DNA of 18,665 nucleotides from Promethearchaeia archaeon (GTDB taxonomy: Archaea; Asgardarchaeota; Lokiarchaeia; Sigyniarchaeales; SOKP01). A program made the position numbers and the translations under genes. Below are positions 1,477 to 18,665 of this stretch, one piece after another; position 1 is the stretch's first letter; each line of letters begins with the position of its first letter. The notes below the pieces were generated by a model, which saw only the letters and a list, made by a program, of their open reading frames with translations, did no database searches and was not told where the DNA came from. The stretch spans positions 1-18,665 of the forward strand of contig JAHQWX010000005.1 of assembly GCA_029856375.1 (NCBI GenBank), in the 5' to 3' direction.

Positions 1477-1507
1477 ATCAGAAGATGTAAGTTAAAAAAG
1501 AGAAAAT

Positions 1508-3073: not shown

Positions 3074-3148
3074 ATGAAATAGAATCAAATTTAAATGTAA
3101 TATTTCAAATAAAAGGTTAAACGGTTAAAAACAGAAAAGCCAATAAGT

Positions 3149-3162
3149 AATTAAAAATTATT
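3149..3162 (+). promoter_or_regulatory. Possible TATA box for the UbiA-HAD operon
   Basis: The 125-base gap after the barrel protein is AT-rich and holds no gene. The stretch AATTAAAAATTATT-like around 3149-3162 is centred about 43 bases before the UbiA ATG. That would place transcription start near 3182, with a short leader containing GTGAT, a weak match to an archaeal ribosome binding site. In DNA this AT-rich the call is weak. Confidence 0.25.
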
Positions 3163-3198
3163 TTTCTAATAATTGTTCTATAACTAGTTGTGATATAA

Positions 3199-4146: not shown

Positions 4147-4893
4147 GTGATTCTCGTGTCTCAAACACACCCACCGATTATATTATTCGATTTTGATGGA
4201 GTTATAATCACTCATACCAGTCTAGAACTTGCTGCGTTAAAACAACTCAAAAACAAATGGTATAATTGGAAAAACACTGAAAATATGAGGTTAATCGACT
4301 TCGCTCGAATATTTGAGCAATCTGATTCTAAAAACAAAAGGAAAGCCTTTACGGGCATAAATAGAAGCTATAAAAATATAATTCCAAATTACTTCAAACG
4401 ATGGTTTTTTTTTGTCCGATTTAGGTTAGACTATCCGAAATTGGAGAAAATTTATGACACTCTTAAGCCTAATCTCGAAGATACATTAAAATTGTTTAAA
4501 GAAAATCGTTTTCCAATGGGAATTGTCTCAAATACTGGTAAAGAAAGACTCGAGTATTTTAGCACCAAATTCGAATTGGATAATTATTTTTCTGTTTTGT
4601 TTTCTCGTAGCGATACAGAGATAAGAAAACCAAGTCCTTATCCAATTATTCTCGCATTGAAAACAATTAAAGAAAAATTTAATTTACCCAAAATTGATAA
4701 GAGTATGGTTTATTACATTGGGGATTTGCCATCAGATATTATTTGCGCAAACGCGGCTGGTATTAACAGCGTAGCTACAATTTCCGGTCATGGCTTAAAA
4801 GAAGATTTGGTAGCAGAAAATCCAACTTTAGTAATTAATGAAATAAAAGACCTATTAAAAGTTGAAAAAATCAAGAAATTCCTAAAAAAATAA
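4147..4893 (+). CDS. HAD-superfamily phosphatase
   Basis: The start is GTG, immediately after the UbiA stop codon. All four HAD motifs are visible in the 248 residues: LFDFDGV with nucleophile D15 and acid D17; IVSNT (126-130); K161 in RKPSPYP; and YIGDLPSD (190-197) with D193 and D197. A helical cap of about 90 residues between motifs I and II makes it a C1-cap, phosphoglycolate-phosphatase-like enzyme. DPPR-synthase-like UbiA genes are often adjacent or fused to a HAD domain, so dephosphorylation of the prenyltransferase product is a reasonable guess, but the substrate is not shown by sequence. It ends two bases from the convergent stop codon of the kinase-fold gene, with no room for a separate terminator. 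Confidence 0.85.
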   Translation: MILVSQTHPPIILFDFDGVIITHTSLELAALKQLKNKWYNWKNTENMRLIDFARIFEQSDSKNKRKAFTGINRSYKNIIPNYFKRWFFFVRFRLDYPKLEKIYDTLKPNLEDTLKLFKENRFPMGIVSNTGKERLEYFSTKFELDNYFSVLFSRSDTEIRKPSPYPIILALKTIKEKFNLPKIDKSMVYYIGDLPSDIICANAAGINSVATISGHGLKEDLVAENPTLVINEIKDLLKVEKIKKFLKK

Positions 4894-4895
4894 AA

Positions 4896-5870
4896 TTATC
4901 TCTGTATTTTTCCGGGTAAATAGAACAAATATCTTCTTCTAAGTAATTTTGTCTTGATAAATCTGTCAATTTTGCGAGAATTTTGAACAACAACCCAAAT
5001 CATTTTATCGCTTTTATAATAATCTTGAACTTCTTTTAAAGTAATTGGTTCAATATTGAATTCCTTCGCCTCATCAGCAAAAAATTTATTCGTAACTTTT
5101 ACTATCCCGGGAATTAGTCTCGGGAGTTGCTCCTTAAAGAAGTTCGCAATTAAGTCAATAGTAACTAACCGCCAATCGTAGTATCGATCCAATATCTCTT
5201 GAACAAACATGTATTTAACAATCGGCCTCAAGAAAAACGCGAGGCTTTTTAATAATTGATCCGGATTTATTGCTTCTATTCCATTTTTTCTGTATAGAGG
5301 TGTGCTCGTATCTAAGTATTGCAATACACCATCTTCGGGAATTTTCGGATTACTAGGATCGTAACCTCCAAGAGAAAAGTTTGAAATTTGACCATCCAGC
5401 CCTAATTTTAAATCCTCGTTCTCTATATTAAATTTCCAAACTTTTTTCAATTCTCTCATTACGAGAATTATTAATTTATTCACATTTTGACTGTTTAAAT
5501 CGTGAATTATTTTATTTCCAATAGATTCAGGCGGAAGCTTTTTCTGAGCGCAATATAATACGGGTTTTCCTTCAGGATCTTCCACCCACGCTGTTTTATA
5601 TTCTGGAATGTTTAATCCAACGCGTTCGCTTAGAATTTTGTTATACTTGTCGTAAATTTTTATGTAATAGTTCACTTGTCTCTTGTTTTCAAAAACTGGA
5701 AGTCTTTTATAGGCAATACTTGCTGGATCGTTTAATAGCTCAAAAACTAAACTTATCTCTCCATAACCGAGTATTTTAATTGGGACTTGACCTCGCTCTG
5801 GATGGTAAGTATCAATTGTTTTTTCTAATTTTTTTAACAAATCTACATTAATCTTCATTTTTTTCCACAT
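4896..5870 (-). CDS. Kinase-fold protein (aminoglycoside-phosphotransferase-like, DUF6206-type)
   Basis: I place the start at the ATG at 5870, four bases after the aminotransferase stop, giving 324 residues. An in-frame ATG at 5909 would overlap that gene by 35 bases and add an unlikely hydrophobic/basic leader. The layout is protein-kinase-like: a glycine loop ILGYGEISLVFEL (near 33-45), a strand lysine in AYKRLPVF, then LGLDGQISNF with D159 and N164 in the places of the catalytic Asp and Asn, and YLDTSTPLYR with D187 as the DFG-type metal Asp. It probably phosphorylates a small molecule, perhaps one related to the upstream aminotransferase. The family name is from memory and less certain than the fold. 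It follows the aminotransferase so closely that translational coupling is likely. Confidence 0.65.
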   Translation of the reverse strand: MWKKMKINVDLLKKLEKTIDTYHPERGQVPIKILGYGEISLVFELLNDPASIAYKRLPVFENKRQVNYYIKIYDKYNKILSERVGLNIPEYKTAWVEDPEGKPVLYCAQKKLPPESIGNKIIHDLNSQNVNKLIILVMRELKKVWKFNIENEDLKLGLDGQISNFSLGGYDPSNPKIPEDGVLQYLDTSTPLYRKNGIEAINPDQLLKSLAFFLRPIVKYMFVQEILDRYYDWRLVTIDLIANFFKEQLPRLIPGIVKVTNKFFADEAKEFNIEPITLKEVQDYYKSDKMIWVVVQNSRKIDRFIKTKLLRRRYLFYLPGKIQR

Positions 5871-5874
5871 AATT

Positions 5875-7179
5875 TTATTTTTTTTGAAACAAATTAAGAG
5901 CATTTTCAAGCCGTTTCATTATTTCTTCGATGTCTTCAGGCTCAATTATTAATGGAGGCATCAATTTATCCACAGCCTTATTATTTCCACAATAATCTCC
6001 CCAAATTCCACTTTTTATCATATTTACAGTAAATAATTGTCCATAGACTTCGTCTTTAAATTCTATCCCCCACATTAATCCTCGTCCGCGCACTTCTACT
6101 ATTAAATTTGAATACTTTTCCTTCAATTCTTCTAAATCATCTCCGAATAATTTTCCCATATCCTTGACATGACTCAAAAATTCTGGTTTGGATAGGATAT
6201 CCAACATCTTTCTTGTAACATAGCACCCCAATTCCGAACCCCCTGTAGTACTTATGTGAAGAAAAGGATCCTCCTTAAAAACTTCTTCAATAAACGGTCG
6301 ATAACTACAAGTCGCCATAGGATAAACCCCAGAGCTCATGCCTTTAGCGAGTACAATAATATCAGGTACAACCTTTTCGTTCTCATACAATCCTCCATAA
6401 ATTCCCCACATTTCGCCGGTTCGACCAAGACCTGCTTGAACTTCATCAGATATCATTATTACGCCTTTATCGTCGCATAACTCTCTTATTGTGGTGAAAT
6501 AACCTTCTGGAGGTATCAAAATACCTCCTGTAGCGGGGATTGTTTCAAATAATACGCACGAAGTATTCTCGTCAATTTGTTTGGATAATGCACCAAGATC
6601 TCCAAAAGGTACTTGTGCAAAATCAGAAGGGCCCCATAAAAACATATCTTTAAATCTGGACGCACAGGCTCCTAATGCAAAACCCGTAACACCATGATAA
6701 GCTCGATTCGCCGAGAGGATTTTTTTCCTTTGTGTTATACCTCTAGCCAATTTTATTGCAAGATCAATTGCTTCTCCACCTCCAACGCAATATTGAGTTT
6801 TTGAGATATCTCCCGGGAGAAGTTCCGCCATTTCTTTTGCGAGTAAGGACCTTTGTTCGCTGAGTAGGTGATGATCTCCAATGTTTAATCCCGCATCAAG
6901 CCCATCTTTTAAAGCCTTTACAATCTCTGGATGGTTGTGCCCTAAATTGAAAACGCCTCCAGAAGTATGGCAATCAATTAAATCTAGTGGAGTTTCTCCT
7001 TTTCTTCGTCCTTCTAACATTTTAATGTTTAAACGATTTCTCTCTCCTAGGACTACCCCAAAACCAATCATTTTGAAAAAAGAAGCCTTGTATTTATTAA
7101 CATAGGTAGAATACATTTTTACAATAGATCTTTGGCTCTCTGAACCGATAATATTTTTATTGCGCGACAAGGAAATCAC
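5875..7179 (-). CDS. Class III PLP-dependent aminotransferase
   Basis: The start is GTG at 7179, giving 434 residues; an in-frame ATG sits 21 codons further in. The class III signature is complete: the phosphate-binding loop in GGGEAIDLAIKLAR (133-146), YHGVTGFALG (161-170), the metal-less PLP pocket ISDEVQAGLGRTG with D245, and the PLP lysine K279 in VLAKGMSSGVYP. C-terminal RGRGLMWGIEF is also typical. Members transfer amino groups from ornithine, 4-aminobutyrate or aminosugar-type donors; sequence alone does not tell which. The usual S-G-S/T-E-A-N entry is here V-G-G-G-E-A-I-D, which hints at an unusual substrate. The next gene begins four bases after the stop and encodes a kinase-fold protein, so amination followed by phosphorylation of one compound is a plausible, unproven scheme. 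Confidence 0.88.
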   Translation of the reverse strand: MISLSRNKNIIGSESQRSIVKMYSTYVNKYKASFFKMIGFGVVLGERNRLNIKMLEGRRKGETPLDLIDCHTSGGVFNLGHNHPEIVKALKDGLDAGLNIGDHHLLSEQRSLLAKEMAELLPGDISKTQYCVGGGEAIDLAIKLARGITQRKKILSANRAYHGVTGFALGACASRFKDMFLWGPSDFAQVPFGDLGALSKQIDENTSCVLFETIPATGGILIPPEGYFTTIRELCDDKGVIMISDEVQAGLGRTGEMWGIYGGLYENEKVVPDIIVLAKGMSSGVYPMATCSYRPFIEEVFKEDPFLHISTTGGSELGCYVTRKMLDILSKPEFLSHVKDMGKLFGDDLEELKEKYSNLIVEVRGRGLMWGIEFKDEVYGQLFTVNMIKSGIWGDYCGNNKAVDKLMPPLIIEPEDIEEIMKRLENALNLFQKK

Positions 7180-7260
7180 TATTTTTAGGTTGAATTAATT
7201 CTAGTTTGTGCTTTTAAGTTTATTAAGCTTTACGCAGTCTCCAAAGGAGTAGAGGTGTCG

Positions 7261-7279
7261 AATTCTGAAAAGAAGAATT
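7261..7279 (-). terminator. Small inverted repeat after the DUF362 gene
   Basis: AATTCT at 7261-7266 and AGAATT at 7274-7279 are perfect inverted arms around a 7-base loop, nine bases after the DUF362 stop on the minus strand. No strong T run follows, so termination is only a possibility. The rest of the 108-base gap to the aminotransferase holds a TTAAAAG-like element at 7211-7218 that could serve as its TATA box. Confidence 0.22.
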
Positions 7280-7287
7280 TAATCGCT

Positions 7288-8445
7288 TTAGGGATAAGAT
7301 TGGAACATTTTGCCCCAACTAGTTTGCATAAATTTCTTTATTCGACGCTTCCCAGTTGTATTATACCAGAATAAATCGTGGTAAATCTTGGAAGCATTTG
7401 ATGGTCCTAACATAAATAACTCGCTATGAAATAACGGCGCAAAAAAACTCAGAAATCCCTTTCTAGCCATTTGATCTCCCCAGATCACGAGGCTTCTTTT
7501 AACTCTGAACTTCCAATTTAAATTAGAAACATTTTTTCCAACTATCTCGATTTGATCGAAATCACCACACCCTATGCCCTCATCGTGTGCCATACGTATT
7601 GCTGGAAGTGAAAGAGGATCAAATCCCATTATACGAGAAACAACGGCGTCAACTGCTACTTGATCGTATCCTGCAAGTAGGTAGTTTTTAATTCTTGGAA
7701 ACATCGTTCTAGGACCAGCTCCATCGCCGCACACTGTCCCATCAACAACTGCTAAAATCTCGGGATGAATTTGTTGCTGAATAGTAAGTAAATCAACAAG
7801 CACTTCAGACATATATTGATGACTAACATGCCTTCTTTTAGTTAGTAATCCACCGAAAGCGTTTTTCATAGCACAGGTAATTCCTCCGTGTTTCAGTGAA
7901 CCTTCGGTTTTTCTGATATCCCCGCCCTCCTGTCCCGTGTGACCGTGAGTTTTCATTGTAGGTAAGTGAATAATCTTTTTTCCCACATAAAATTGAGGAA
8001 TTTTAAATCCCTTTGGAAATATTTTTAAGTCTAATACATGTAATCTTTTATTCTTTAACGCAATAAACCTCGGTCTTAAAGATTCGTAAGGTACAAATTT
8101 TATTCTTGTAAGTGGAACAAACCACGTATTATATTTCTTTATTATTTTATCCCATTTATTTCCTTTAAGACCTCTTTCTATATTCGTCACCACTGTCTTA
8201 TTTTCGCAGGGGAATAACTTTCTTGAGTCATAACCATCCTCTACCATCGTTTTTAAAACGCCCTCAACTTGCCAAGGAGGGCTCGAACACGCTGGAAAGA
8301 ATTTACTCCAAGAAAGATTTAATTTTATGATTGTCTTCTCATCTTTACCATAATGATCTTGATACTTCGCCATATGCATAATCTTTTTGTAGTCGTCCAA
8401 TACGGTTTTCGGCGAAGTTTTAATTACATATATTTTCTTATCCAT
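7288..8445 (-). CDS. DUF362-domain protein
   Basis: The 385-residue product carries the DUF362 pattern: an N-terminal KTIIKLNLSW strand, the middle segment IIHLPTMKTHG, a long glycine-rich GGITCAMKNAFGG region, AVVDGTVCGDGAGP, and LLAGYDQVAVDAVVSRIMGFDP followed by a short G-I-G segment. DUF362 proteins are widespread in archaea and anaerobes, sometimes carry ferredoxin clusters, and have no agreed function. No CxxCxxCxxxC cluster is present here, so this is the ferredoxin-free form. The C-terminal 100 residues are basic and aromatic. The neighbour upstream is the membrane acyltransferase, 37 bases away, but a good TATA element in that gap suggests it can be transcribed alone, probably with a leaderless mRNA. 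Confidence 0.82.
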   Translation of the reverse strand: MDKKIYVIKTSPKTVLDDYKKIMHMAKYQDHYGKDEKTIIKLNLSWSKFFPACSSPPWQVEGVLKTMVEDGYDSRKLFPCENKTVVTNIERGLKGNKWDKIIKKYNTWFVPLTRIKFVPYESLRPRFIALKNKRLHVLDLKIFPKGFKIPQFYVGKKIIHLPTMKTHGHTGQEGGDIRKTEGSLKHGGITCAMKNAFGGLLTKRRHVSHQYMSEVLVDLLTIQQQIHPEILAVVDGTVCGDGAGPRTMFPRIKNYLLAGYDQVAVDAVVSRIMGFDPLSLPAIRMAHDEGIGCGDFDQIEIVGKNVSNLNWKFRVKRSLVIWGDQMARKGFLSFFAPLFHSELFMLGPSNASKIYHDLFWYNTTGKRRIKKFMQTSWGKMFQSYP

Positions 8446-8465
8446 ATTAAACTCATAAATTCGTA

Positions 8466-8479
8466 ATTATTATATATAT
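8466..8479 (-). promoter_or_regulatory. Probable TATA box for the DUF362 gene
   Basis: On the minus strand a GATATATATAATAAT run preceded by purine-rich AAAA (a BRE-like element) is centred about 28 bases before the ATG at 8445. This is the spacing expected when an archaeal transcript starts at, or next to, the start codon. No Shine-Dalgarno motif is present in the gap, which agrees with a leaderless message. Confidence 0.45.
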
Positions 8480-8482
8480 CTT

Positions 8483-9604
8483 TTACTCTTTATTACCAAA
8501 TTCTTTCCTTTCCTTCTCCTTTGAAAGATATACAGCAAGCTTTGATACTCCATATTTTAACGATATTTTGCGACCAAATTTTTTGTAAGCTCTATCTAAT
8601 AAAAGCCATAATAGAAACAACCAGATTGCTATGGGAACCCAAATAATTATAAAATTTAAAGATCTCCAAAAAATAAGAGCGATAGCGTTATGGGCTAAAT
8701 ATACAGTTAATGAATAATAAGACAAGTAGAAGAAAAACGGATGTTCCCATTCCTGAGATAATTTAAATTCGTGAAGGTATGTTAAAATTCCTACGAATAG
8801 TAAATTCCATCCCATGGTATAAAAGCACCAAGTAAACGATTTTCTCCTTAAAAACGAAATAGGATCGTTAAATATAAAAATGGACGAAATTATTGAAAAT
8901 ACAACTAAGATACTCCCATATATTAATAAATTTCTTATCAACTTCTTTTTAATTTGGGCCTTTTGTTGCTCTTCATCTTCTATTGAGTATATTTCATAAA
9001 ATAAATCTCCAAATACAGTACCTAAAATAAAGAATGATAGAAATGGCAGAGGGGAATCTTGATCCCATGGGTGAAATAAGAGATGATAAAGTACTGTGCC
9101 AATCGAATCGACTTTATATAGGGCAAATAACACCGTGAAAACAGGAGCAGTTATGAAAAGCAAAATAAATGACAAAACCACGCGGCTTCCCTTCGACAAT
9201 TTTGCCATAAGGGGATACCCAACAAAATATGCAACTGCTACCGTTAATAAAATAAACCAGCTCCACAAACCTGCTGGACCCCATGCATAAATTCCCGCCG
9301 CAGCGTTATAGATTATAGCAATAACGAAAATAATAAAAGTACGATAATAATGTTCTTTAAAACAAGTTTTCCTCGAATATTCGGGATCATCTTCTGCTTT
9401 TTTCCACCTTAACCTTAGAGATAATGCGATACTTAATCCAGAAACAAATAAAAAACCGCTTGCTCCTACGACTTCCATAATAGCTTCGAATAATTGATAC
9501 AACCAAAAATCTTCTGGCAATATCCACCAGTTAATTGGGTGCATAAACACCATGTAAAACATGCATAAGCCTCGAAAGGCGTCAATACTCTTTATTCTAC
9601 GCAT
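8483..9604 (-). CDS. HGSNAT-like membrane acyltransferase
   Basis: The 373-residue polytopic protein has about nine or ten hydrophobic segments. The N-terminal RRIKSIDAFRGL then MVFMHPINWW (about 3-27) is the hallmark of the heparan-alpha-glucosaminide N-acetyltransferase-like catalytic family (DUF1624/HGSNAT), with H22 in the conserved position. A second conserved stretch, HPWDQDSPLPFLSFFILGT, carries the loop seen near the centre of these proteins, and YLAHNAIALIFW near the C-terminus supplies another membrane histidine. Such enzymes move acetyl groups from cytoplasmic acetyl-CoA across the membrane to amino or hydroxyl groups of sugars. The acceptor here is unknown; the nearby aminotransferase makes an aminosugar possible. 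Alternative: an OpgC/acyltransferase-3 type protein, which has a similar start. A TTTAAAAG element at 9641-9648 could be its TATA box. Confidence 0.7.
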   Translation of the reverse strand: MRRIKSIDAFRGLCMFYMVFMHPINWWILPEDFWLYQLFEAIMEVVGASGFLFVSGLSIALSLRLRWKKAEDDPEYSRKTCFKEHYYRTFIIFVIAIIYNAAAGIYAWGPAGLWSWFILLTVAVAYFVGYPLMAKLSKGSRVVLSFILLFITAPVFTVLFALYKVDSIGTVLYHLLFHPWDQDSPLPFLSFFILGTVFGDLFYEIYSIEDEEQQKAQIKKKLIRNLLIYGSILVVFSIISSIFIFNDPISFLRRKSFTWCFYTMGWNLLFVGILTYLHEFKLSQEWEHPFFFYLSYYSLTVYLAHNAIALIFWRSLNFIIIWVPIAIWLFLLWLLLDRAYKKFGRKISLKYGVSKLAVYLSKEKERKEFGNKE

Positions 9605-9675
9605 GATTTCTTATAGAAAAATACTTTTTCAATTAAAGTCTTTTAAATCAGAAAATTAAGCAAGTAATAAAAAAT

Positions 9676-10485
9676 TTATTTTAATTTTTCCCTTTCTAAA
9701 GCTTCAGATATAGAGAGATTTCCAAGGAAGACTTCTTTATCTAAATTTTCATCAAACTTAATCTCGCTATTTAATTTCTTTTGGGATTGCTTTCTATTAT
9801 TTTTAATACTTTCATCAAAATAATTTACACTTTTAAGAGCCTTTATTGCGCGAATAGCAATCCAGATAGCGGATATTTCGTGTTTCGTTATATTTAATAT
9901 CTTTTTTCTATGTTTAATTTTCGAAGTCTTTCTCTCATCAACGAGATAAAAAATTGGAGGATTTTCTTTAAATTCTTCAGTTAATGCATCCAATAATGAC
10001 TCTACCAAGCTTGGAACTCCAATACCAAAAAAAATTTTTATTTTATAGGCATCAGATTTTCTAAATTTAAAATAGGAAATGAATTTCTTGATTTCGCTAA
10101 CAATTTTCTTTTGATCGTAAAAAATTCTCGAAATGAAAAAGTATTCGTCGAGAAAAATGGCAACTCCAGTTTTATTCTCCCCAGGATCGATCGAAAAAAT
10201 AATTTCATTATAATCCCTGTTGTTTCCAAATTTATGAGTGGCTAAAATTTGCATGATATATTCTTCAAAATCTTGAGAGTCTGAATACACTAAAAATTTA
10301 TCGCTCTGAATTTCATCGGGCAATCGCTCGAACTCTTCTTGAGTAGTAAGTACGACACCATCAAAATTTCTTACCTTTTGACCAAAATTAAGAACTTGAA
10401 TAGGGATTTTTAGTTTTTTTAAACTGTTATTTACTTTATAAAAAAAACGAGAGTCATTACTGTACAAATATATTTTTAATCTCAA
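9676..10485 (-). CDS. RuvC/RNase H-fold nuclease-like protein
   Basis: The start is TTG at 10485; 269 residues. An N-terminal 90-residue region (one strand-helix domain, no recognised family) precedes an RNase H-fold core. IIFSIDPGENKTGVAIF (95-111) is the RuvC/YqgF first strand with D100. FFGIGVP (152-158) follows, then YLVDERKTSK (180-189) with E184, and ITKHEISAIWIAIRA (199-213) as the C-terminal active-site helix. In RuvC this helix usually reads D-x-x-D-A; here H202, E203 and S205 replace that pattern, so only about three acidic positions remain. It may be a structure-specific nuclease or a binding protein with reduced activity. It is divergent from a RadB-like ATPase, with 59 bases between, which favours a shared recombination or repair role. 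The last 40 residues are charged and low in complexity. Confidence 0.7.
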   Translation of the reverse strand: MRLKIYLYSNDSRFFYKVNNSLKKLKIPIQVLNFGQKVRNFDGVVLTTQEEFERLPDEIQSDKFLVYSDSQDFEEYIMQILATHKFGNNRDYNEIIFSIDPGENKTGVAIFLDEYFFISRIFYDQKKIVSEIKKFISYFKFRKSDAYKIKIFFGIGVPSLVESLLDALTEEFKENPPIFYLVDERKTSKIKHRKKILNITKHEISAIWIAIRAIKALKSVNYFDESIKNNRKQSQKKLNSEIKFDENLDKEVFLGNLSISEALEREKLK

Positions 10486-10490
10486 ATCAA

Positions 10491-10503
10491 TTTATTAAAT
10501 ATA
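10491..10503 (+). promoter_or_regulatory. Possible TATA element between divergent RuvC-like and RadB-like genes
   Basis: TTTATTAAATATA lies about 47 bases before the ATG at 10545, so a transcript would carry a leader of about 20 bases. On the opposite strand a GATAAATAAT stretch at about 10508-10517 is centred near 27 bases before the TTG at 10485, the distance expected for a leaderless message. The 59-base gap thus has room for one promoter in each direction. Confidence 0.32.
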
Positions 10504-10544
10504 CAAGATTATTTATCAATCTCTCTAGTGTTTATTGAAGCTGC

Positions 10545-11258
10545 ATGGAAAATCCAAATAATAGCGATTTATTAACAGAATTATTAAATAAGATTGATTT
10601 CTTAAAGGGGATACTATCTATTTGGGGCGAAGTTGGAGTAGGAAAAACAACATTGGCACTTCAAATAGCTAAACAATTATCCCAATTAAATCAAAAGGTA
10701 ATATACATTTATACTAAAGATACATTTCCCTCTGAGAAATATAAGAATTTAACGCATAATATGGAAGGATCTGAAATACAAAATATTAAATTTGTAAAGT
10801 TCGAGGATTTTGAGGATTTATTCACTTACTTCCTAAATTTAGAGTTCGTCATTTTAGATCTCAAGAAATTGGGTTTAATTCAAATTGGTGCAATTATAAT
10901 CGATTCAGCACTCGATCTGTATTCTTTAAAAACAGATATGACGAAAAAACAGAAAAATATCGAGCTCAATTATAAGTTAAACCAATTATTAGGAACCTGC
11001 ACTTATTTAAGTAATGCCTATAAAATCAAGATAGTTTTAACTAATTATCCTAGCGTAGTTCAGGAATCAGAAAACGAAGAATTCGTAATTAAACAAAAAG
11101 GTGGGAAAGTTGTTGAATATTGGACTTCAACTTCTATACAAATCCATCGAACGCAAAATATGTCTGAAAGGAGAATAAAATTGATTACCCATCACGATAA
11201 TGAAATATTTGAACATAATGTTAAATTGGATTCCAGAGGATTTAAGCTCTTAATTTAG
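10545..11258 (+). CDS. RadB-like RecA-fold ATPase
   Basis: The 237-residue protein is essentially a bare RecA-fold core. Walker A is GEVGVGKTTLA (28-38, K34) and Walker B is IGAIIIDSAL with D120 after four hydrophobic residues. LGTCTYLSNAYKIKIVLTNYPSV corresponds to the RadB/RadA strand that senses nucleotide state. Short length, lack of an N-terminal helix-hairpin-helix domain and position of motifs match RadB-type paralogs, which assist RadA filament assembly in archaea. The sequence is diverged, so a KaiC-like ATPase cannot be excluded. Its gene is divergent from the RuvC-like gene and runs into trm1, 20 bases downstream, so it probably leads a three-gene unit with trm1 and the FtsJ-type methyltransferase. 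Confidence 0.68.
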   Translation: MENPNNSDLLTELLNKIDFLKGILSIWGEVGVGKTTLALQIAKQLSQLNQKVIYIYTKDTFPSEKYKNLTHNMEGSEIQNIKFVKFEDFEDLFTYFLNLEFVILDLKKLGLIQIGAIIIDSALDLYSLKTDMTKKQKNIELNYKLNQLLGTCTYLSNAYKIKIVLTNYPSVVQESENEEFVIKQKGGKVVEYWTSTSIQIHRTQNMSERRIKLITHHDNEIFEHNVKLDSRGFKLLI

Positions 11259-11278
11259 AAAAAGATTCGTCCAAGGCA

Positions 11279-12508
11279 ATGATAGAAAACACTGACACAC
11301 AAAAAGAGAAGAATGTTGTCGTTCACGAGGAGGGTTCCTCTAAATTTTATTTACCAGTACCCGATAGTAATTGCGTCCCTTCCAAATCAATGTCAGTTTT
11401 TTATAATAAAAGAATGGAAATTAATCGAGACATTACAAATCTAGCTATTAATGCTTATAGCGAGCTATATAAAAAGAATGAACTGATTATTGTAGATTCA
11501 ATGGCAGCTACTGGCATCAGTTCGATTAGAATGCTTAAGGAGTGCAAAAATGTAAAAAAAATCTATATTAACGATATTAATCCAGCGGCCGTTGAATTGA
11601 TTAAGAAAAATTTGGAACTGAACAATTTAAAAAATGCAGGTACCTTTATTGAAATTTCAAAAAAAGATGCGAGCTTACTATTTTCGGAATTATCTCAATT
11701 AACACATAACGAAAAGCCAAATGTTATTTCAATTGATCCGTTTGGAACGCCAAATCTTTATGTTGACCCTGCTTTCAAGGCACTAATTAATAAAGAGGGT
11801 TTGATGTGTATCACAGCTACAGATACTCCAGTTTTATTTGGAGTAAAAATTAAAGCGTGTCTTAGAAAATACATGGCAAAACCTCTTAATAATGAATTTC
11901 ATAAAGAAACTGGGGCAAGAATTCTGATGTATTTTATTCAAAGAATTGCGAATATTAATAAGGTCGGAATTATTCCACTGCTAACTATGTACTCGAACCA
12001 TTTCGTCAGAATTTTCGGTCTTACATTTAAAAATAAAAACGACATTTCGGAATCAATCAAGAATTTTGGTTATTTTATTTATTGTAAACATTGTGGGTAT
12101 AGGAACTGGTATCAAAATATTATCTTAAATATACCTGAATGCTGCCCATTGTGCGAAAAAAGAGAGAAATTAGAATTTACTGGCCCTCTTTGGCTTGGAG
12201 AACTCCACAAACGGGATTATTTGGAAAGTTTGATTGAATTGAACGACCAATCTTCTTATAAAAATAGAAATAGACTTAATACTATACTTTCGATTGCTCT
12301 CGAAGAAATTAACATGCCTAAATCTTATTATAATCTTCATTATCTTAGCAAGGAATTAAAACTCAAAAATGTACCAAAGATTGACGTCGTTATCGCAAAA
12401 TTACGGAATAAAGGTTATACGGCTTCAAGAACTCATTTTGACTTTAAATCTATAAAAACTGATATGAAAATGAACGAATTAAAGCAAATGCTGGTATCTT
12501 TAAATTAA
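11279..12508 (+). CDS. trm1: tRNA (guanine-26-N2)-dimethyltransferase Trm1
   Basis: The enzyme adds two methyl groups from S-adenosylmethionine to the N2 of guanine 26 in tRNA. All family marks are present in 409 residues: FYNKRMEINRD (41-51), the SAM pocket VDSMAATGISSIR, NDINPAAVELI, catalytic IDPFGTP (152-158), and ITATDTPVLFG (178-188). The C-terminal domain has four zinc-type cysteines, C269, C272, C289 and C292, and the PLWLGELH segment. Length is near the usual 380-420 for archaeal Trm1. The ATG follows a weak AAGG element. The FtsJ-type methyltransferase begins 15 bases after its stop, so the two RNA-modification genes are likely in one transcript with the RadB-like gene upstream. Confidence 0.95.
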   Translation: MIENTDTQKEKNVVVHEEGSSKFYLPVPDSNCVPSKSMSVFYNKRMEINRDITNLAINAYSELYKKNELIIVDSMAATGISSIRMLKECKNVKKIYINDINPAAVELIKKNLELNNLKNAGTFIEISKKDASLLFSELSQLTHNEKPNVISIDPFGTPNLYVDPAFKALINKEGLMCITATDTPVLFGVKIKACLRKYMAKPLNNEFHKETGARILMYFIQRIANINKVGIIPLLTMYSNHFVRIFGLTFKNKNDISESIKNFGYFIYCKHCGYRNWYQNIILNIPECCPLCEKREKLEFTGPLWLGELHKRDYLESLIELNDQSSYKNRNRLNTILSIALEEINMPKSYYNLHYLSKELKLKNVPKIDVVIAKLRNKGYTASRTHFDFKSIKTDMKMNELKQMLVSLN

Positions 12509-12523
12509 ATAGGTTAATAATAT

Positions 12524-13165
12524 ATGCCAAAACAATGGATTAAAGAACACCAAAAGGAACACTTTTATAGATCTGCCAAAAAAGAAGGATATCGAGCCCG
12601 ATCTGCATTTAAACTTATTCATATCAACGATAAATTCAAAATTTTTAGAAGAGTTTATACTCTATTAGATTTAGGATGCGCGCCTGGATCGTGGCTTCAA
12701 GTATCAAAAGAATTTATCGACGCGAATATTCAAAAAGATAAAGGAAAAATCGCTCCGAAATTACTTGGAGTAGACATAGAAAAGATATCTCCCATAGAGG
12801 GAGTAAATTTTATACAAATGGATATAAATGACAACTCTCTAGAGAGTAAAATTAACGGTTTCTTTGAAAATGAACAAATAGATCTCATAATTTCTGATTG
12901 TTCGATAAATAAGACAGGTAACAAAACTCTTGACCAAGTCTCGCAAATCCGTATTTGTAACAGAGTAGTTGAAATTGCAATTCAATTTCTAAAGCCCGAT
13001 CGTTTTTTAGTTTTAAAATGCTTCGAAGGATCTGAATTAGCTAGTTTTATTAGAAATCTAAAAAAAAAATTTCAAATGGTCAAAAAATTCATTCCTGGGG
13101 CAACTCGCTCTCGAAGCAGCGAATTATACCTAATTTGTAAATCTATAATTAAGATAAAGCAGTAA
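12524..13165 (+). CDS. rlmE: RlmE/FtsJ-type RNA 2'-O-ribose methyltransferase
   Basis: The 213-residue product is a single-domain FtsJ-family enzyme. YRARSAFKL supplies K30, LLDLGCAPGSWLQV (47-60) is the SAM-binding motif I, IISDCS supplies D125, VLKCFEG supplies K165 and RSRSSELYL supplies E200, so the K-D-K-E catalytic tetrad is complete. In bacteria the family methylates U2552 of 23S rRNA; archaeal and eukaryotic relatives also methylate tRNA anticodon loops, so the target cannot be fixed from sequence. After the catalytic D125 the usual A-P-x-x-S-G is replaced by S-I-N-K-T-G, a modest divergence. A weak AGGT lies 11 bases before the ATG. The stop is ten bases from the convergent TFE-beta-like gene. 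Confidence 0.9.
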   Translation: MPKQWIKEHQKEHFYRSAKKEGYRARSAFKLIHINDKFKIFRRVYTLLDLGCAPGSWLQVSKEFIDANIQKDKGKIAPKLLGVDIEKISPIEGVNFIQMDINDNSLESKINGFFENEQIDLIISDCSINKTGNKTLDQVSQIRICNRVVEIAIQFLKPDRFLVLKCFEGSELASFIRNLKKKFQMVKKFIPGATRSRSSELYLICKSIIKIKQ

Positions 13166-13180
13166 TATATTTGAATTACT
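13161..13180. terminator. Possible bidirectional hairpin between convergent genes
   Basis: AGTAAT at 13161-13166 and ATTACT at 13175-13180 are perfect inverted arms with an 8-base AT loop. The arms overlap the stop codons of the methyltransferase (+) and the TFE-beta-like gene (-). With 6-base AT-rich arms the stem is weak, so a terminator role is only suggested by position. Confidence 0.25.
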
Positions 13181-13787
13181 CCTCAAAAAATCCCTCATCT
13201 ACTTGTTCAAAGGGATTTTGGTATACTTTTTTATCAAGACTATACCACACCCAATCAGTAAACCAAATACATACATTAGGATTAAAATTCTCCTGATTTA
13301 CATCGCAACGATTAATATATGGACAGAGAAAACAAGGAACCCGCCAAACCATATTCCAGATAAAATCCGCTTTCTTTGTATCTATTTTTACCTGTTTTTT
13401 TGATATACTTTCTTCGATTTCCTCAATATAGTAAATATATTTCGTCCAACTTGCTGTTGTTAATTCTCTCTGCATCTTAATCTTCGATTTTAATTCCAGT
13501 ATATCTAAGATGCTTTCGAGTTTATCACTAGCAATATTGGCCTTTTCTTTTAAATCCTCTAAACTTAATTCTTTTTCCTTCTTTATCAGATTAAGAAGTG
13601 CAATCTCGTCTTTTTTTAGCTTTCTGGATAATTCTTTTATCCTAAAATCAAAACGCGCTTGTTGTCGTTCTTGCTCTGTGTCCTCATCTTCGCTTTCAAT
13701 CCTTTGGCGGACTTTACATTTGTGACGACTTAAATATAAGAACTCCTGTCCGCAGTAGGGGCAAACCTCTTTCTTTTTCTTACTCAT
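13176..13787 (-). CDS. TFE-beta/RPC39-like winged-helix Fe-S transcription protein with N-terminal zinc finger
   Basis: Three parts are visible in 203 residues. At the N-terminus C9-x2-C12-x9-H22-x-C24 forms a small zinc finger after a run of lysines. Residues about 35-130 contain a charged coiled helix and a winged-helix-like segment (DEIALLNLIKKEKELSLEDL then ILELKSKI). The C-terminus has C152-x2-C155-x5-C161-x11-C173 inside PCFLCPYINRC and NPNVCIWFTDWV. Human RPC39 has the same arrangement (C-x2-C-x5-C-x10-C with S-P-S-N-C-I-Y-M-T-E-W), which holds a 4Fe-4S cluster and is shared with archaeal TFE-beta. That family helps open promoter DNA for RNA polymerase. The zinc finger is not part of the usual TFE-beta plan that I know. 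Regulation: divergent from the RadA-like gene, 104 bases apart. Confidence 0.78.
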   Translation of the reverse strand: MSKKKKEVCPYCGQEFLYLSRHKCKVRQRIESEDEDTEQERQQARFDFRIKELSRKLKKDEIALLNLIKKEKELSLEDLKEKANIASDKLESILDILELKSKIKMQRELTTASWTKYIYYIEEIEESISKKQVKIDTKKADFIWNMVWRVPCFLCPYINRCDVNQENFNPNVCIWFTDWVWYSLDKKVYQNPFEQVDEGFFEE

Positions 13788-13797
13788 GAAATAGTGG

Positions 13798-13824
13798 CCA
13801 ATTTTTTATTGGAGAATACGCGTA
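13798..13824. promoter_or_regulatory. Inverted repeats in the divergent TFE-beta-like/RadA-like promoter region
   Basis: CCAAT at 13798-13802 and ATTGG at 13808-13812 are inverted arms around five T, and the perfect 8-base palindrome TACGCGTA lies at 13817-13824. The first lies within 25 bases of the TFE-beta-like ATG, where its AATAAAAAATT core on the minus strand could also be the TATA box. The second is GC-richer than its surroundings and could be an operator. No protein partner can be named. Confidence 0.28.
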
Positions 13825-13854
13825 GAATAAATTAATATTGTGATTTTTGATAAA

Positions 13855-13870
13855 TTATTTAATATAAAAT
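13855..13870 (+). promoter_or_regulatory. Probable TATA box for the RadA-like gene
   Basis: TTATTTAATATAAAAT is centred about 29 bases before the ATG at 13892. The spacing fits a transcript starting just before the start codon, and no Shine-Dalgarno motif is placed at a working distance. Confidence 0.38.
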
Positions 13871-13891
13871 TTTAATTTTTCTATTTAGAGA

Positions 13892-14815
13892 ATGAAAAAT
13901 CTTCAAAAAAAATTAAAAGAGCTCAATCTAAACGACATTAATTCATTATTCTATCTTAACGACTCAGAAATAACACAAGTACTAAAACAAGATTTAGATT
14001 TAATTAATAAAATTAAAGTAGAATTAACACAGAAGTCAAGACAATTATGGTTTAAGAAAGATATTGATTCAGTCGCGAAAAAAGACAATCCTTTAAGCTC
14101 TGGAAGCAAAAACATAGATTCAATTCTTGATGGAGGCTTTTTTCCCGGAAAAATATATCTAGTGTTCGGAGAATTTAATACTGGTAAGACGCAACTTTGT
14201 CATCAATTAGCAACAAATATTTTCTTCGACAAACAAGGTATAAATCCTAACAACATCCAAAGCTTAACCTTATATCTCGATACAGAAAATACATTCAGAC
14301 CCGAAAGGATTAAACAGCTAGCTTCTAGATTAAGTGAAGATTCAGAGAGCGTATTAAATAGCATCGATCGCACTCAAATTATAGGAAGTATAGCTCTAAC
14401 GGTTGTTTTTGATAAAATTGAAGATTTACTCCAGCAAAATAAATATAAACTTCTTATTATCGACTCTATCGCCAATCATTTTCGAACGGAACTTACTCAG
14501 GAAGGGATAAATGCTTCAGTGCTTAAGAATAATTTTATAAAAATTTTGAAAAAAATCAACGAAATCACAAAAAAATATAACTTAATCACAATCCTAACTA
14601 GCCAAGTTACCCCAGTTTTTTCTAAAGAATCGTTAATACCGGTGAAACCCGTAGCGTTAAATATACTTGTGCATTTTTTTTCTGAATTTATCTATCTGAG
14701 TAATTTAGAAGAAAATCAGCGCCTTTTACATGTATTAAATTCGGAATTTCTCCCAGAAAGAAGATGTCTCTTCATAATCGATCAGGAAGGCATAAAGGAC
14801 TATAAATTAACTTAG
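13892..14815 (+). CDS. RadA-like recombinase paralog
   Basis: The 307-residue product follows the RadA plan. An N-terminal helical region of about 55 residues stands where RadA has its helix-hairpin-helix domain. PLSSGSKNIDSILDGGF leads to Walker A GEFNTGKTQLCHQLA (93-107, K99). LYLDTENTFRPERI (127-140) contains the catalytic E132, and KLLIIDSI (186-193) is Walker B with D191. HVLNSEFLPERR matches the V-D-S-P-x-L-P-E end segment of RadA. Differences are notable: Walker A reads F-N-T-G where RadA has F-G-S-G, the linker lacks a clear F-x-x-A polymerisation motif, and the L1/L2 DNA-binding region (198-215) has lost the G-R-G and R-Q-Q residues. It is thus probably a non-filament or accessory paralog, not the main recombinase. 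Its stop overlaps that of mptE by three bases. Confidence 0.82.
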   Translation: MKNLQKKLKELNLNDINSLFYLNDSEITQVLKQDLDLINKIKVELTQKSRQLWFKKDIDSVAKKDNPLSSGSKNIDSILDGGFFPGKIYLVFGEFNTGKTQLCHQLATNIFFDKQGINPNNIQSLTLYLDTENTFRPERIKQLASRLSEDSESVLNSIDRTQIIGSIALTVVFDKIEDLLQQNKYKLLIIDSIANHFRTELTQEGINASVLKNNFIKILKKINEITKKYNLITILTSQVTPVFSKESLIPVKPVALNILVHFFSEFIYLSNLEENQRLLHVLNSEFLPERRCLFIIDQEGIKDYKLT

Positions 14816-15669
14816 ACAGATTCTCCCTTTAAAATTCTGATATATTTACTTGGGTAGATATACTGAAAAATACTGGAGATTATTTCTGAACCCACAAAAT
14901 AAGTTTTGTTCTTTGAATTTTTCAAAATCCACTCTAATAACTTTTTAGCGTATTCAAGCTTTTTTACTTTACTCAGCGTAGCTCTTTCATTTTTTGAGAT
15001 ATCTGGTTTAGAGTAACGCCCTACTATATTTCCGAAATCCATTCCGATTAAAAATTGTATTTGAGAAGGTATCAGTAAGTTTTTAATAAAAAAGACAATT
15101 CTATCGCCATCAGTAAATCCACCGGGGTTTAAAATAATAGATTCTGGCTCAACTTGGGTAGTTCCAATAATATTTTTCGATTTCTTTAGGATTTCTGAAA
15201 CCTTATTTAACTTTCTGATGTTATCACCATGTGCGTGTACAACCATGAAATCTGTCTTGTCTACATAGCGCGAAAAATCTTCTAGAGGAATTCCGTCAAG
15301 ATCAGTGAAAATTAAGTTTGATCGTAGCCCAATTTCATCGAGAAATACTGCAGCTCCATCAGCAGAAATAATCGTACTATTTTTAAGTAGATTGAGCTCG
15401 TTATTTTCGATAATTCTATTCAATACATCCTCTAACGAGGGTCCACACCCAAAAATTGAAATAAATTTTTTTTTTTGGATCAATTCCCTTAATTTTAAGG
15501 CGTTTTGAGTAAATTGAGTGAAACTTGGACTTTCCTGTAAAATTTCAAGCAACTCATCTCGAGCAAAAATATCCATTTTTTCGTCATAACTAAATTCTTT
15601 AATGATTTTATAATACCATTCCTTGTATTCCGGATAGAAATTAATAGCTTTAGGTAATTCTGGCTCCAT
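14812..15669 (-). CDS. mptE: 6-hydroxymethyl-7,8-dihydropterin pyrophosphokinase, archaeal MptE type
   Basis: MptE adds pyrophosphate from ATP to 6-hydroxymethyldihydropterin on the route to archaeal folate or tetrahydromethanopterin cofactors. The 285 residues show the family's ordered motifs: ISIFGCGPSLE (70-80), IISADGAAVFLDE (100-112), IFTDLDG (120-126), VVHAHGDN (143-150), IGTTQVEP (168-175), NPGGFTDGDR (181-190) and IGMDFGNIVGRYS (208-220). The DLDG and HAHGDN residues bind metal and nucleotide in this fold. Start: ATG at 15669 with AAGGA six bases before it, overlapping the stop codon of the isomerase-like gene, which suggests reinitiation. A one-carbon carrier pathway fits an organism with Hdr/Mvh-type anaerobic metabolism. 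Confidence 0.92.
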   Translation of the reverse strand: MEPELPKAINFYPEYKEWYYKIIKEFSYDEKMDIFARDELLEILQESPSFTQFTQNALKLRELIQKKKFISIFGCGPSLEDVLNRIIENNELNLLKNSTIISADGAAVFLDEIGLRSNLIFTDLDGIPLEDFSRYVDKTDFMVVHAHGDNIRKLNKVSEILKKSKNIIGTTQVEPESIILNPGGFTDGDRIVFFIKNLLIPSQIQFLIGMDFGNIVGRYSKPDISKNERATLSKVKKLEYAKKLLEWILKNSKNKTYFVGSEIISSIFQYIYPSKYIRILKGESV

Positions 15670-15678
15670 ATATAATCC

Positions 15679-16434
15679 TTAATTGCTTTCTAATTGATGT
15701 AAATTAATATTTAATTGCTTTGCCATAATTTTTAATTCTTTAGTAATGTCTCCATACGCAACAATCCAATGGTGACCTAAGGCACATTCCTCAATAAATT
15801 TTAAATAATCCTTTATTGATACCGGTAATTTAACTCGAAGAGGATTTCCTGGGAAGGTCATATCTGTTTTAATCGCTTCTCCTAAAATAACTCCAAGCCT
15901 ATAGGTCTCTGCTTTTCCAATGAGGTTAGCCATAGTTACGATACCCGGTTTTGAAGGAAATACCACGCATGCCCCCCCATCTGCCAATCTTACTGGATTT
16001 ATTTCAACCTTCTCTCTAGATTCTGCTAACTTAATGGAACCACATCCACAATGAGAACCGGTTACCGAATTATCTTCTTTATGGACATAGAGTGTATCTG
16101 TATTGTGAACTGGCCCTCCAGATAATTTCATCATAATCCACATTAAAAGTGCTCCATGAACATCTCCTTCACAAGCACAAGCAATTCCCTCATCAGCCAA
16201 TAAACTAAATCCTAAACATGTTTTTCCCATAAACTCTGGATAGCATTCAATTGTTAAAGCGTCTAAATTTTTTTTTTCAATGAACTTTTTTAATATATAA
16301 AAAATTCTAATAACATCCAAACCAGTATTATCTGAGATATTTATTTTCTCGATTGAAGATTTAACTTTTTCCCATTGCTGGCTAATTTCATCCTCACTAA
16401 TGCCCATATTCATATTTTGTATAGAGAATTTCAA
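15679..16434 (-). CDS. L-fucose/L-arabinose isomerase-like protein, C-terminal half (N-terminus missing)
   Basis: The reading frame is 251 residues, from a TTG that directly follows an in-frame stop; family members are usually about 400-480 residues. Visible family features are LDALTIECYPE (57-67), the ACEGDVHGALLMWIM segment (87-101), SGGPVHNTDTL (105-115), GSHCGCGS (126-133), PLRVKLP (198-204) and the C-terminal ALGHHWIVAYGD (218-229), whose histidine pair is a conserved metal/substrate site. The first roughly 180-200 residues of the family, the domain that binds one side of the sugar, are absent. Recognisable homology starts near residue 10, at about base 16405. The gene ends nine bases before mptE on the same strand. 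It lies head to head with a truncated hdrA, so it is probably a broken gene or one cut by an assembly join, not a working isomerase. Confidence 0.68.
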   Translation of the reverse strand: MKFSIQNMNMGISEDEISQQWEKVKSSIEKINISDNTGLDVIRIFYILKKFIEKKNLDALTIECYPEFMGKTCLGFSLLADEGIACACEGDVHGALLMWIMMKLSGGPVHNTDTLYVHKEDNSVTGSHCGCGSIKLAESREKVEINPVRLADGGACVVFPSKPGIVTMANLIGKAETYRLGVILGEAIKTDMTFPGNPLRVKLPVSIKDYLKFIEECALGHHWIVAYGDITKELKIMAKQLNINLHQLESN

Positions 16435-17145
16435 TTATCAGACCTAAATGCTGAAAATCTGTGGCGAGGGCTTCGAAAAAAAGTTACTTATGAAAGATAT
16501 CGTTCAATTGATGACATTAAAATCATTAATGAAAATGAAAACTTCCATATTTCATATAAGAATGTTAACGCTCAAACAAAAATAGAATACAATACTGATT
16601 TGTTAATATTAGCTACTCCCAAAATTCCTGCTGATGGTACTGAGCAATTAGCAAAACTTTTAAAAGTAGCAACAAATATAGATGGCTTTTTCTTAGAAGC
16701 TGATGCAAAACTTAGACCAATAGATTTTGCTACAGAAGGAATTTTTTTATGTGGAGGTGCTCATTGGCCGAAATGGATAGGTGAAAGCATCACGCAAGCT
16801 TATGGTGCTGCTGGAAGAGCAGCAATAATAATGGTTAAAGGGGAAATAGAAACTGAATGTATAACTTCTTATATAAATGAAGAAAAATGTATAGGATGTG
16901 CTAAATGTATTGAGGTTTGCCCTTATAATGCTATTGAATTGATTGATATTAATAAAGAAATGGGTTTATATAATATATCTTTGAGAAAAGCTCGTATAGT
17001 CAATGCAGTTTGTAAGGGTTGTGGAGCTTGTGTGGTTGAATGCTCAGTTGGGGCTATTGATCAAAATCATTTTAGTAAATTTCAAATTAACAAAATGATT
17101 GATTTATTACCAAGCTTAGATATAATAGATTATGAATTCGTATAA
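16375..17145 (+). CDS. hdrA: HdrA C-terminal fragment (heterodisulfide reductase subunit A)
   Basis: The open frame starts with TTG at 16375, but likeness to HdrA only begins at about NAHIHILYREF (bases 16399-16431); the codons before that are antisense to the isomerase. The fragment keeps DLLILATPKIPADG and GFFLEADAKLRPIDFATEGIFL (in two parts, 75-88 and 104-125), which form the FAD-binding back half of HdrA, and ITQAYGAAGRAA. Two ferredoxin clusters follow: C172, C175, C178, C182 and C213, C216, C219, C223. The first roughly 380-400 residues, with the G-x-G-x-x-G FAD loop, are missing, so flavin binding and electron bifurcation cannot be complete. HdrA is the flavin subunit linking MvhD/hydrogenase to HdrBC. 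The stop overlaps mvhD by 14 bases. Confidence 0.8.
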   Translation: MLANFILTNAHIHILYREFQLSDLNAENLWRGLRKKVTYERYRSIDDIKIINENENFHISYKNVNAQTKIEYNTDLLILATPKIPADGTEQLAKLLKVATNIDGFFLEADAKLRPIDFATEGIFLCGGAHWPKWIGESITQAYGAAGRAAIIMVKGEIETECITSYINEEKCIGCAKCIEVCPYNAIELIDINKEMGLYNISLRKARIVNAVCKGCGACVVECSVGAIDQNHFSKFQINKMIDLLPSLDIIDYEFV

Positions 17146-17653
17146 TTATGAGGGATTTGTACTGTTAAAATTAAAAAAGAAAATAAAAAATGAATTTGAA
17201 CCAAATATTTTAGTTTTTTGTTGTAATTGGTGTAGTTATGCGGGTGCAGACTTAGCAGGTGTGTCTAGATTCCAATATCCCCCAAATATTAGGATTATTA
17301 GAGTAATGTGTTCTAGCAGAGTTGATCCAATATTTGTCCTACGAGCTTTTAATAATGGAATAGATGGAGTATTAATTATTGGGTGTCATATGGGGGATTG
17401 TCATTACATGAAAGGATTCGAATATACTCAAACAAGAATGAGTCATTTAAAGAACTTAATTAAATATATAGGAATTGAGGAAGATCGATTTCAATTACAC
17501 TCAATTTCAGCAAGTGAGGGAAAGCAGTTTGCAGAATTAATTAAGGATTTTACCAAGAAAATTATAGAATTTGGAGAATTAAAAATCCCAAAAAAACCTG
17601 GAATATTTGAATTAGATTATATTGTAAAATTAAATAGAACGAGAGAATTATGA
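17132..17653 (+). CDS. mvhD: MvhD-type [2Fe-2S] electron-transfer subunit
   Basis: MvhD passes electrons between hydrogenase or formate dehydrogenase modules and HdrA. The 173 residues carry the family's cysteine pattern: FCCNWCSYAGADLAG (C30, C31, C34), IIRVMCSSRVDP (C60), and GCHMGDCHY (C85, C90). The family core starts near residue 24, so the true start could be slightly later than the ATG at 17132, which overlaps the end of hdrA. Length is a little above the usual 140 residues because of about 20 extra at each end. Its stop codon overlaps the frhB start as ATGA, an arrangement typical of coupled translation. The HdrA-MvhD-FrhB order suggests one electron-transfer complex. Confidence 0.92.
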   Translation: MNSYNYEGFVLLKLKKKIKNEFEPNILVFCCNWCSYAGADLAGVSRFQYPPNIRIIRVMCSSRVDPIFVLRAFNNGIDGVLIIGCHMGDCHYMKGFEYTQTRMSHLKNLIKYIGIEEDRFQLHSISASEGKQFAELIKDFTKKIIEFGELKIPKKPGIFELDYIVKLNRTREL

Positions 17654-18665
17654 TGACTGAACCAGCTTATCTAAAACTTTTTCAAAAGGAAGTAAAAAGA
17701 TTTGAAGATCTTAACAATGAAATAATTAAAACTAATAAATGCTGTGCATGTGGTGCTTGTATAGCATATTGTGAAAGTCAAGGTTTTGATGTTATTGAGA
17801 TGAAAGGATATGTTCCTGAATTTAAATCTGAAAAAGGTATTGATAATTGTACTAAATGTGGTGTTTGTTACTATATTTGTCCTCAAACTAAAGTATTATT
17901 AAAAGAATTAAATGACTTTTATTGTATAGAAGATAATATTGGAAAAATAGTTAAAATTCTTGCCGCTAAAACAACAATCTCTGCATTAGAAAAAATTAGG
18001 CAAGATGGGGGGGTAGTTTCAGCAATTCTAACATATTTATTTGAAAAACATAAAATTGATGCCGCTATTGTTTCGGAATTTGACAAAAATTTTGAACCAG
18101 TTCCAAAAATAATATTTGATAAAAAAGATTTATTTAAATCAGCAGGTACACGATATTCTATTTCTCCTCAAATATTTCCTTTAAAAAATTTATATACTAT
18201 CCCAAAAGAGATTCTTATTAAAAATGAGATATTCGATATTGACCAATTAAGAATAGCATTTATTGGAACTCCTTGTCAATGTAGAGCTGTCAGCAAAATG
18301 AAATTTTTGCATGTTAAACCAGGGCATGTAATTAAATATATTATAGGTCTTTTCTGTTTTGAGAATTTTATTTATTCTCAATTATATAATATTTTGAAAA
18401 GAGAAACTAAAGTTGATCCTACTAATATCAAGAAAACTTGGATAAAAAAGAATTTCTTTCTACAAACCAAAGATCATAAAGAATTTGAAATCGATATCAA
18501 AACTCTAAATCCCGCAGTTAGAAATAATTGTCATGAATGCGATGAATTCACAGGAAGATTTACAGATATTAGTGTTGGGGCATCTGGAGCACCAGAAGGA
18601 TATTCTATGATACTAATTAGAACAGATAATGGTGAAAAAGTAATAAATAATATGCTTTCAAAAGG
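17650..18665 (+). CDS. frhB: FrhB-type F420-dependent oxidoreductase beta subunit (3' partial)
   Basis: The gene starts at ATG 17650, overlapping the mvhD stop, and remains open to the window edge (338 residues seen, none of the last part). Two ferredoxin clusters lie at the N-terminus: C31, C34, C37, C41 and C67, C70, C73, C77. The FrhB/FdhB core follows: QDGGVVSAILTYL (118-130), FIGTPCQCRA (204-213), GLFCFENF (233-240), and NCHECDEFTGRFTDISVG (293-310) with C294 and C297, then GAPEGYSMILIRT. Members bind FAD and a [4Fe-4S] cluster and exchange electrons with coenzyme F420 or another deazaflavin-like carrier. The gene order with mvhD and hdrA implies that electrons from F420H2 or ferredoxin enter the HdrA complex here. 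There is no gene on the minus strand of this stretch. Confidence 0.92.
   Translation, partial: MMTEPAYLKLFQKEVKRFEDLNNEIIKTNKCCACGACIAYCESQGFDVIEMKGYVPEFKSEKGIDNCTKCGVCYYICPQTKVLLKELNDFYCIEDNIGKIVKILAAKTTISALEKIRQDGGVVSAILTYLFEKHKIDAAIVSEFDKNFEPVPKIIFDKKDLFKSAGTRYSISPQIFPLKNLYTIPKEILIKNEIFDIDQLRIAFIGTPCQCRAVSKMKFLHVKPGHVIKYIIGLFCFENFIYSQLYNILKRETKVDPTNIKKTWIKKNFFLQTKDHKEFEIDIKTLNPAVRNNCHECDEFTGRFTDISVGASGAPEGYSMILIRTDNGEKVINNMLSK

Follow-up and report, generated by a model that had tools for sequence, protein, structure and literature searches.

A contig with truncated isomerase and hdrA genes head to head is probably a false join of two Lokiarchaeota lineages

Introduction

Near the right end of a contig from a Lokiarchaeota-like draft genome, two truncated genes, one coding for an isomerase and the other for HdrA, meet head to head. 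The question raised by this locus is whether such an arrangement is present in a genome or was produced during assembly or library making. The window analyzed here is the whole contig (C92, 18,665 nt). The draft bin to which it belongs (G000; its own genus is designated g1) consists of 503 contigs, with a completeness of 69.3% and a contamination of 1.52. Comparison genomes were taken from genus g1 (G001, G002, G003 and G004) and from genus g8 (G023, which is Loki_b32, G031, G033 and G035).

Results

Two truncated genes and their shared bases

The features around the join are as follows.

15679..16416, minus strand: isomerase, SftI/L-fucose-isomerase-like, C-terminal 245 of 440 residues (P0002 identity; SftI profile match)
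16397..16416: stretch apparently common to both parents, CTAATGCCCATATTCATATT (base comparison with eight relatives; P0002 on the isomerase side)
16397..17145, plus strand: hdrA, last 248 residues of a double HdrA-like protein of 1037 aa (alignment to relatives)

As the initial annotation had described, two cut genes lie head to head, and their open frames overlap over 16375-16434, with 16434 as the start of the isomerase frame on the minus strand and 16375 as that of the hdrA frame on the plus strand. The isomerase had been taken for a C-terminal half; it is indeed truncated, with 245 of 440 residues retained, and in the profile search its frame aligned with only the second half of the SftI profile (positions 201-440 of 443). 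The truncation of hdrA was also borne out, although the retained fraction is 248 of 1037 residues (24%) and not a third. Its frame corresponded to positions 420-639 of 777 of the HdrA2 profile, and alignment to P0122 and P0123, both of the same length as the 1037-aa protein of G023, revealed that residues 790-1037 are retained.

Full-length homologs starting at the same residues as the two fragments would have spoken against truncation; instead, the isomerase extends to 440 aa in P0002 and hdrA to 1037 aa in G023. DNA immediately upstream of the hdrA fragment is conserved in all eight named relatives, and at least 483 residues precede the fragment in every one of the best 120 of 1510 relatives, in a search that took proteins of about 570-1815 aa and hence no short ones. 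When short proteins were admitted, hdrA pieces of about 140-450 aa appeared among the matches listed, for example P0243 (319 aa, on a contig of 4,893 b). Such shorter hdrA-like proteins, together with the fact that both frames are open, would fit the view that nothing was truncated and that these are naturally short proteins or independently decayed pseudogenes. We consider this hardly conceivable, given the length of the G023 protein, the conserved upstream DNA and the residues preceding the fragment in relatives; for the isomerase it is refuted by the 440-aa protein.

It had been stated that the two genes lose homology about 40 bases apart. We found that the homologies instead overlap over 16397-16416. 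The sequence at the join is ELNEFINMNMGISEDE in P0002 and LKFSIQNMNMGISEDE in the window; the true isomerase sequence extends to 16416, because the two agree that far, with N-M-N-M at the join. On the hdrA side, ungapped identity to the eight named relatives was 13-23% over 16337-16396 and 85-90% over 16417-16476. Since the isomerase continues to 16416 while HdrA homology begins at 16397, the parents appear to share bases at the join. All eight foreign-side relatives differ from the window at position 16404, and over 16405-16416 three of the eight have all 12 bases and five have one mismatch. With relatives used in place of the actual parents, the overlap in the true parents is estimated at ~12-21 bases, the isomerase side being known as amino acids only, with two third-codon positions assumed. 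Under a simple base-composition model, the chance of at least 12 shared bases at a random join is ~2.5e-6.

Native backbone on the left side

1..15669: native g1 backbone, ending with and including the MptE-like gene (collinearity with G002; DNA identity to G001-G004)

Fourteen of the 15 window ORFs up to 15669 were found in G002 (L129, L128) in collinear order, and DNA stretches of 5.2-5.9 kb on the left side aligned with G001-G004 at 67-68% identity. The sole one of the 15 native ORFs unmatched in the compared stretches of G001, G002 and G004 is a 521-aa ORF at 1508-3073, which we read as either an insertion or a gene confined to this lineage.

In G004, G001 and G002, the MptE-like gene is followed by a 265-268-aa ORF (a membrane protein by eye) and then by an ORF that by eye resembles GcvH. 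The compared stretches of these three genomes around the MptE-like gene yielded no match to the isomerase or to the proteins of C191, a contig described below. Because the g1 stretches lack the isomerase there, its position beside the MptE-like gene is known from C92 only, and an additional join may lie between 15,669 and 15,679.

Foreign segment on the right side

16397..18665, plus strand: foreign segment, collinear with genus g8 genomes (DNA identity to Loki_b32 and relatives)
17132..17653, plus strand: FlpD/MvhD-type protein, complete, in the foreign segment (PF02662, 2.7e-54)
17650..18665, plus strand: FrhB/FdhB-like subunit, truncated where the contig stops, in the foreign segment (PF04432/PF04422); 369 aa in G023

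From 16397/16398 to its end, the window matched G023 at 90% identity, both G031 and G033 at 88%, and G035 at 81%. Identity of the segment to the eight named records ranged from 77% to 90%; seven of these matches extend all the way to the contig end or to within 18 bases of it, and the eighth, L119, reaches the end of its own contig. Seven of the eight records are titled Lokiarchaeota or Lokiarchaeia, and one Bathyarchaeota. In the latter, the segment lies on a 5.2-kb contig of a Bathyarchaeota MAG (L116:1694-3963, JAENXI010000076.1) and has 90% identity to the window, the same value as for Loki_b32; this is probably a misbinned Lokiarchaeota contig.

As a control for the values of 88-90%, we used other DNA from the same bin, considering matches of more than 100 bases to the g1 and g8 genomes compared, and obtained identities of 64-78%. 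The best matches of C464 were 74-78% to three g1 genomes and 67-69% to four g8 genomes; for C502, which had no match in G001, they were 70% and 73% in two other members of g1 and 66-76% across four members of g8; C452 gave 68-71% to four g8 genomes across matches of more than 900 bases. The right-hand segment is out of line with the rest of the bin, since the bin's own DNA gives only 64-78%.

In four g8 genomes the segment sits within an island of ~8.4-11.5 kb. On C452 of the bin, the same two island flanks are only ~1 kb apart, and the foreign Hdr island is missing at this syntenic place; additional copies of the right flank occur on C452, which makes the position of that edge approximate. 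When G023 DNA from both sides of the segment (16.8 kb, two queries) was compared with the bin, no match of at least 80% over 60 bases was found outside the window among the best 40 candidates for each query. Apart from the window ends, the matches among these candidates were 64-86% identical, and those of at least 80% were at most 50 bases long. With a bin completeness of only 69.3%, failure to find the remainder of the island is by itself weak evidence.

These results bear on the proposal that a single genome, to which both broken genes are native, underwent an inversion or deletion with its breakpoint at the join. The head-to-head orientation of two cut genes would be expected from such an event. 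However, the right side is foreign, with 88-90% identity to another genus against 64-78% for the other DNA of this genome, and the rest of the island had no close match in the bin among the candidates compared. We therefore hold a breakpoint of this kind to be very improbable.

hdrA-like genes elsewhere

hdrA-like genes of the bin are located on the other contigs C14, C464, C452 and C186. The initial annotation had warned that, if the join is false, the Hdr/Mvh/Frh genes say nothing about the rest of the genome, which was right for this locus. Contigs C464, C174, C220 and C186 were considered as carriers of the missing hdrA part and rejected, as none of seven stretches of the bin's own matched the window. 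Four of the seven (on C464, C174, C220 and C452) match seven hdr loci of relatives at 66-80%, and C186 matches none; on the basis of sequence comparison, these hdrA-like stretches are taken for paralogs or native orthologs.

Several side observations were made on such genes. Two in-frame TGA codons occur in the hdrA-like frames of L083 (6900-8936) and of C14, C464 and C174 of the bin, the pattern expected of selenocysteine genes; in the 1037-aa hdrA of G023 such codons are absent. C452 (L106) carries at 718-4648 a run of similar-looking ORFs of 254, 560, 228 and at least 179 aa, by eye two tandem copies of a pair. In addition, HdrA proteins of 1036-1037 aa from Thorarchaeota or Heimdallarchaeota MAGs (P0131, P0132, P0133 and P0134) are 83-85% identical to Loki_b32 HdrA over its last 258 residues, which we read as transfer or mislabelled bins.

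Missing part of the isomerase and occurrence of the join

A search of the same bin for the missing N-terminal parts had been suggested, and it succeeded for one of the two genes: isomerase residues 1-152 sit at the end of contig C191 (3,930 b), and no missing part of hdrA was found among the stretches and candidates compared. The C191 piece was 52-53% identical to the copies of G016 and G010, which belong to the same subfamily, and 25-27% identical to two other full-length paralogs of the bin. A protein search was performed with a query made up of the C191 piece and, after it, the piece from the window, and the best 120 of 626 matches were listed. It returned P0002, a 440-aa database protein with three member sequences on two contigs, identical to the C191 piece at 152 of 152 residues and to the window piece at 242 of 242 (P0002 residues 199-440); N-M-N ahead of these 242 residues is also retained in the window. 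Since the longest contig carrying P0002 measures 15,796 b, it is neither C92 (18,665 b) nor C191 (3,930 b). P0002 is known as a protein sequence only, and on contig size alone we infer that this is an independent assembly; strains with and without the join could exist side by side. A second full-length isomerase, P0003, is ~90% identical to both pieces.

Also on C191 (L028:1-2998), a 390-aa ORF and an ORF of at least 442 aa run in the same direction as the isomerase. They are likely its true neighbours, and by eye are predicted to be acyltransferase-like and rhamnosidase-like. A search with C191 DNA gave no match in seven genomes, which carries little weight.

A match across 16397 was found in none of 57 other genomes, and only in the bin itself among the 58 searched (best seven candidate places per genome); relatives with the same arrangement, which might have refuted an artefact, were not found in that search. 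The cut hdrA protein, with its MYREFQ start just right of the join, is P0242 in the database, where two member sequences come from one contig of 18,665 b, that is, C92. No second contig with this protein appeared among the best 120 of 121 matches to the chimeric frame as query; P0242 itself does not span the join, because it starts to the right of it. Outside the window, hdrA of the foreign parent was found only as relatives: a protein search returned no full-length hdrA above 89% protein identity.

A recent transfer was also considered, in which part of an Hdr-Mvh-Frh module would have passed between Lokiarchaeota genera, g8 DNA being inserted into the isomerase of this strain by microhomology-mediated joining and breaking the gene, while sister cells kept it intact. 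The short sequence shared at the join is compatible with such repair as well. Moreover, C191 ends ~43 residues before the join and does not overlap C92, which counts against a false join; an insertion with deletion might leave such an uncovered stretch. On the other hand, C191 carries the isomerase up to its final codon, identical to P0002 throughout and without a junction, and another contig encodes the identical isomerase protein in full. A far-side junction was sought as a sign of insertion: the contig stops within the foreign segment at 18665, and the C191 end shows none. No mobile-element gene was detected by Pfam in eight ORFs scanned around the join, and no second instance of the join appeared in what was searched. 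Thus, both the insertion and the transfer of the module seem improbable to us.

Discussion

Our comparison suggests that C92 is very probably a chimera, in which two Lokiarchaeota lineages (g1 and g8) were falsely joined. This is supported because the closest lineage differs by side and changes abruptly at one point, the isomerase is intact elsewhere (C191, P0002), bases are common to both parents at the join, and the join was absent from the other assemblies searched. The false join of metagenomic contigs suggested by the initial annotation is thus the explanation that best agrees with the results. The arrangement itself is almost certainly not a real genomic one and would be an assembly or library error.

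The true g1 contig would have run from the MptE-like gene into an intact isomerase gene. A chance match of ~12-21 bases inside this gene could then have led to a switch to DNA of the g8 lineage in the middle of hdrA, after which g8 DNA would continue for 2.3 kb to the contig end; both lineages would have been present in the same sample. Our guess, with a modest preference, is that a short k-mer in the assembly graph gave rise to the switch. Certain assembler settings would permit a join at ~20 bases. Another possible but less probable route is template switching while DNA was amplified or the library made.

It should be noted that the FlpD and FrhB-like genes and the hdrA piece at the end of this contig do not allow H2, F420 or heterodisulfide metabolism to be ascribed to this genome. 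The bin scores 1.52 for contamination, and a value this low is thus compatible with foreign contig ends like this one. Such joins may be detected without reads, from a change of lineage, a missing gene part located where another contig ends, an intact database protein and a short shared sequence.

Comparison with known systems

The isomerase resembles SftI sulfoquinovose isomerase and L-fucose-isomerase-like proteins in its profile match across the retained half, whereas this half protein, scored as such, reached 126.7 bits against the curated SftI cut-off of 700. The hdrA fragment resembles HdrA and HdrA2 of heterodisulfide reductase complexes in its C-terminal ferredoxin part and in being followed by FlpD/MvhD and then FrhB-like genes, but its relative in G023 has 1037 aa, FlpD being encoded separately there, and the fragment, scored as a fragment, obtained 162 bits against the HdrA2 cut-off of 1100.

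With regard to the join, chimeric contigs of related species are described as a known assembler fault (review PMC7299287; PMC8201837), and the GUNC report presents misassemblies as relatively rare compared with mis-binning (PMC8201837). C92 is similar to the metagenomic chimeric contigs outlined there (PMC7299287; GUNC, PMC8201837) in that sequence of two related organisms would lie in one contig, and differs in that its shared stretch is very short (~12-21 bases) and lies within two unrelated genes. It is also similar to chimeras of multiple displacement amplification, for which PMC1855051 reports switches at complementary stretches of up to 21 bases; however, 85% of the chimeras reported there were inversions, mostly intramolecular, whereas C92 appears to join two lineages.
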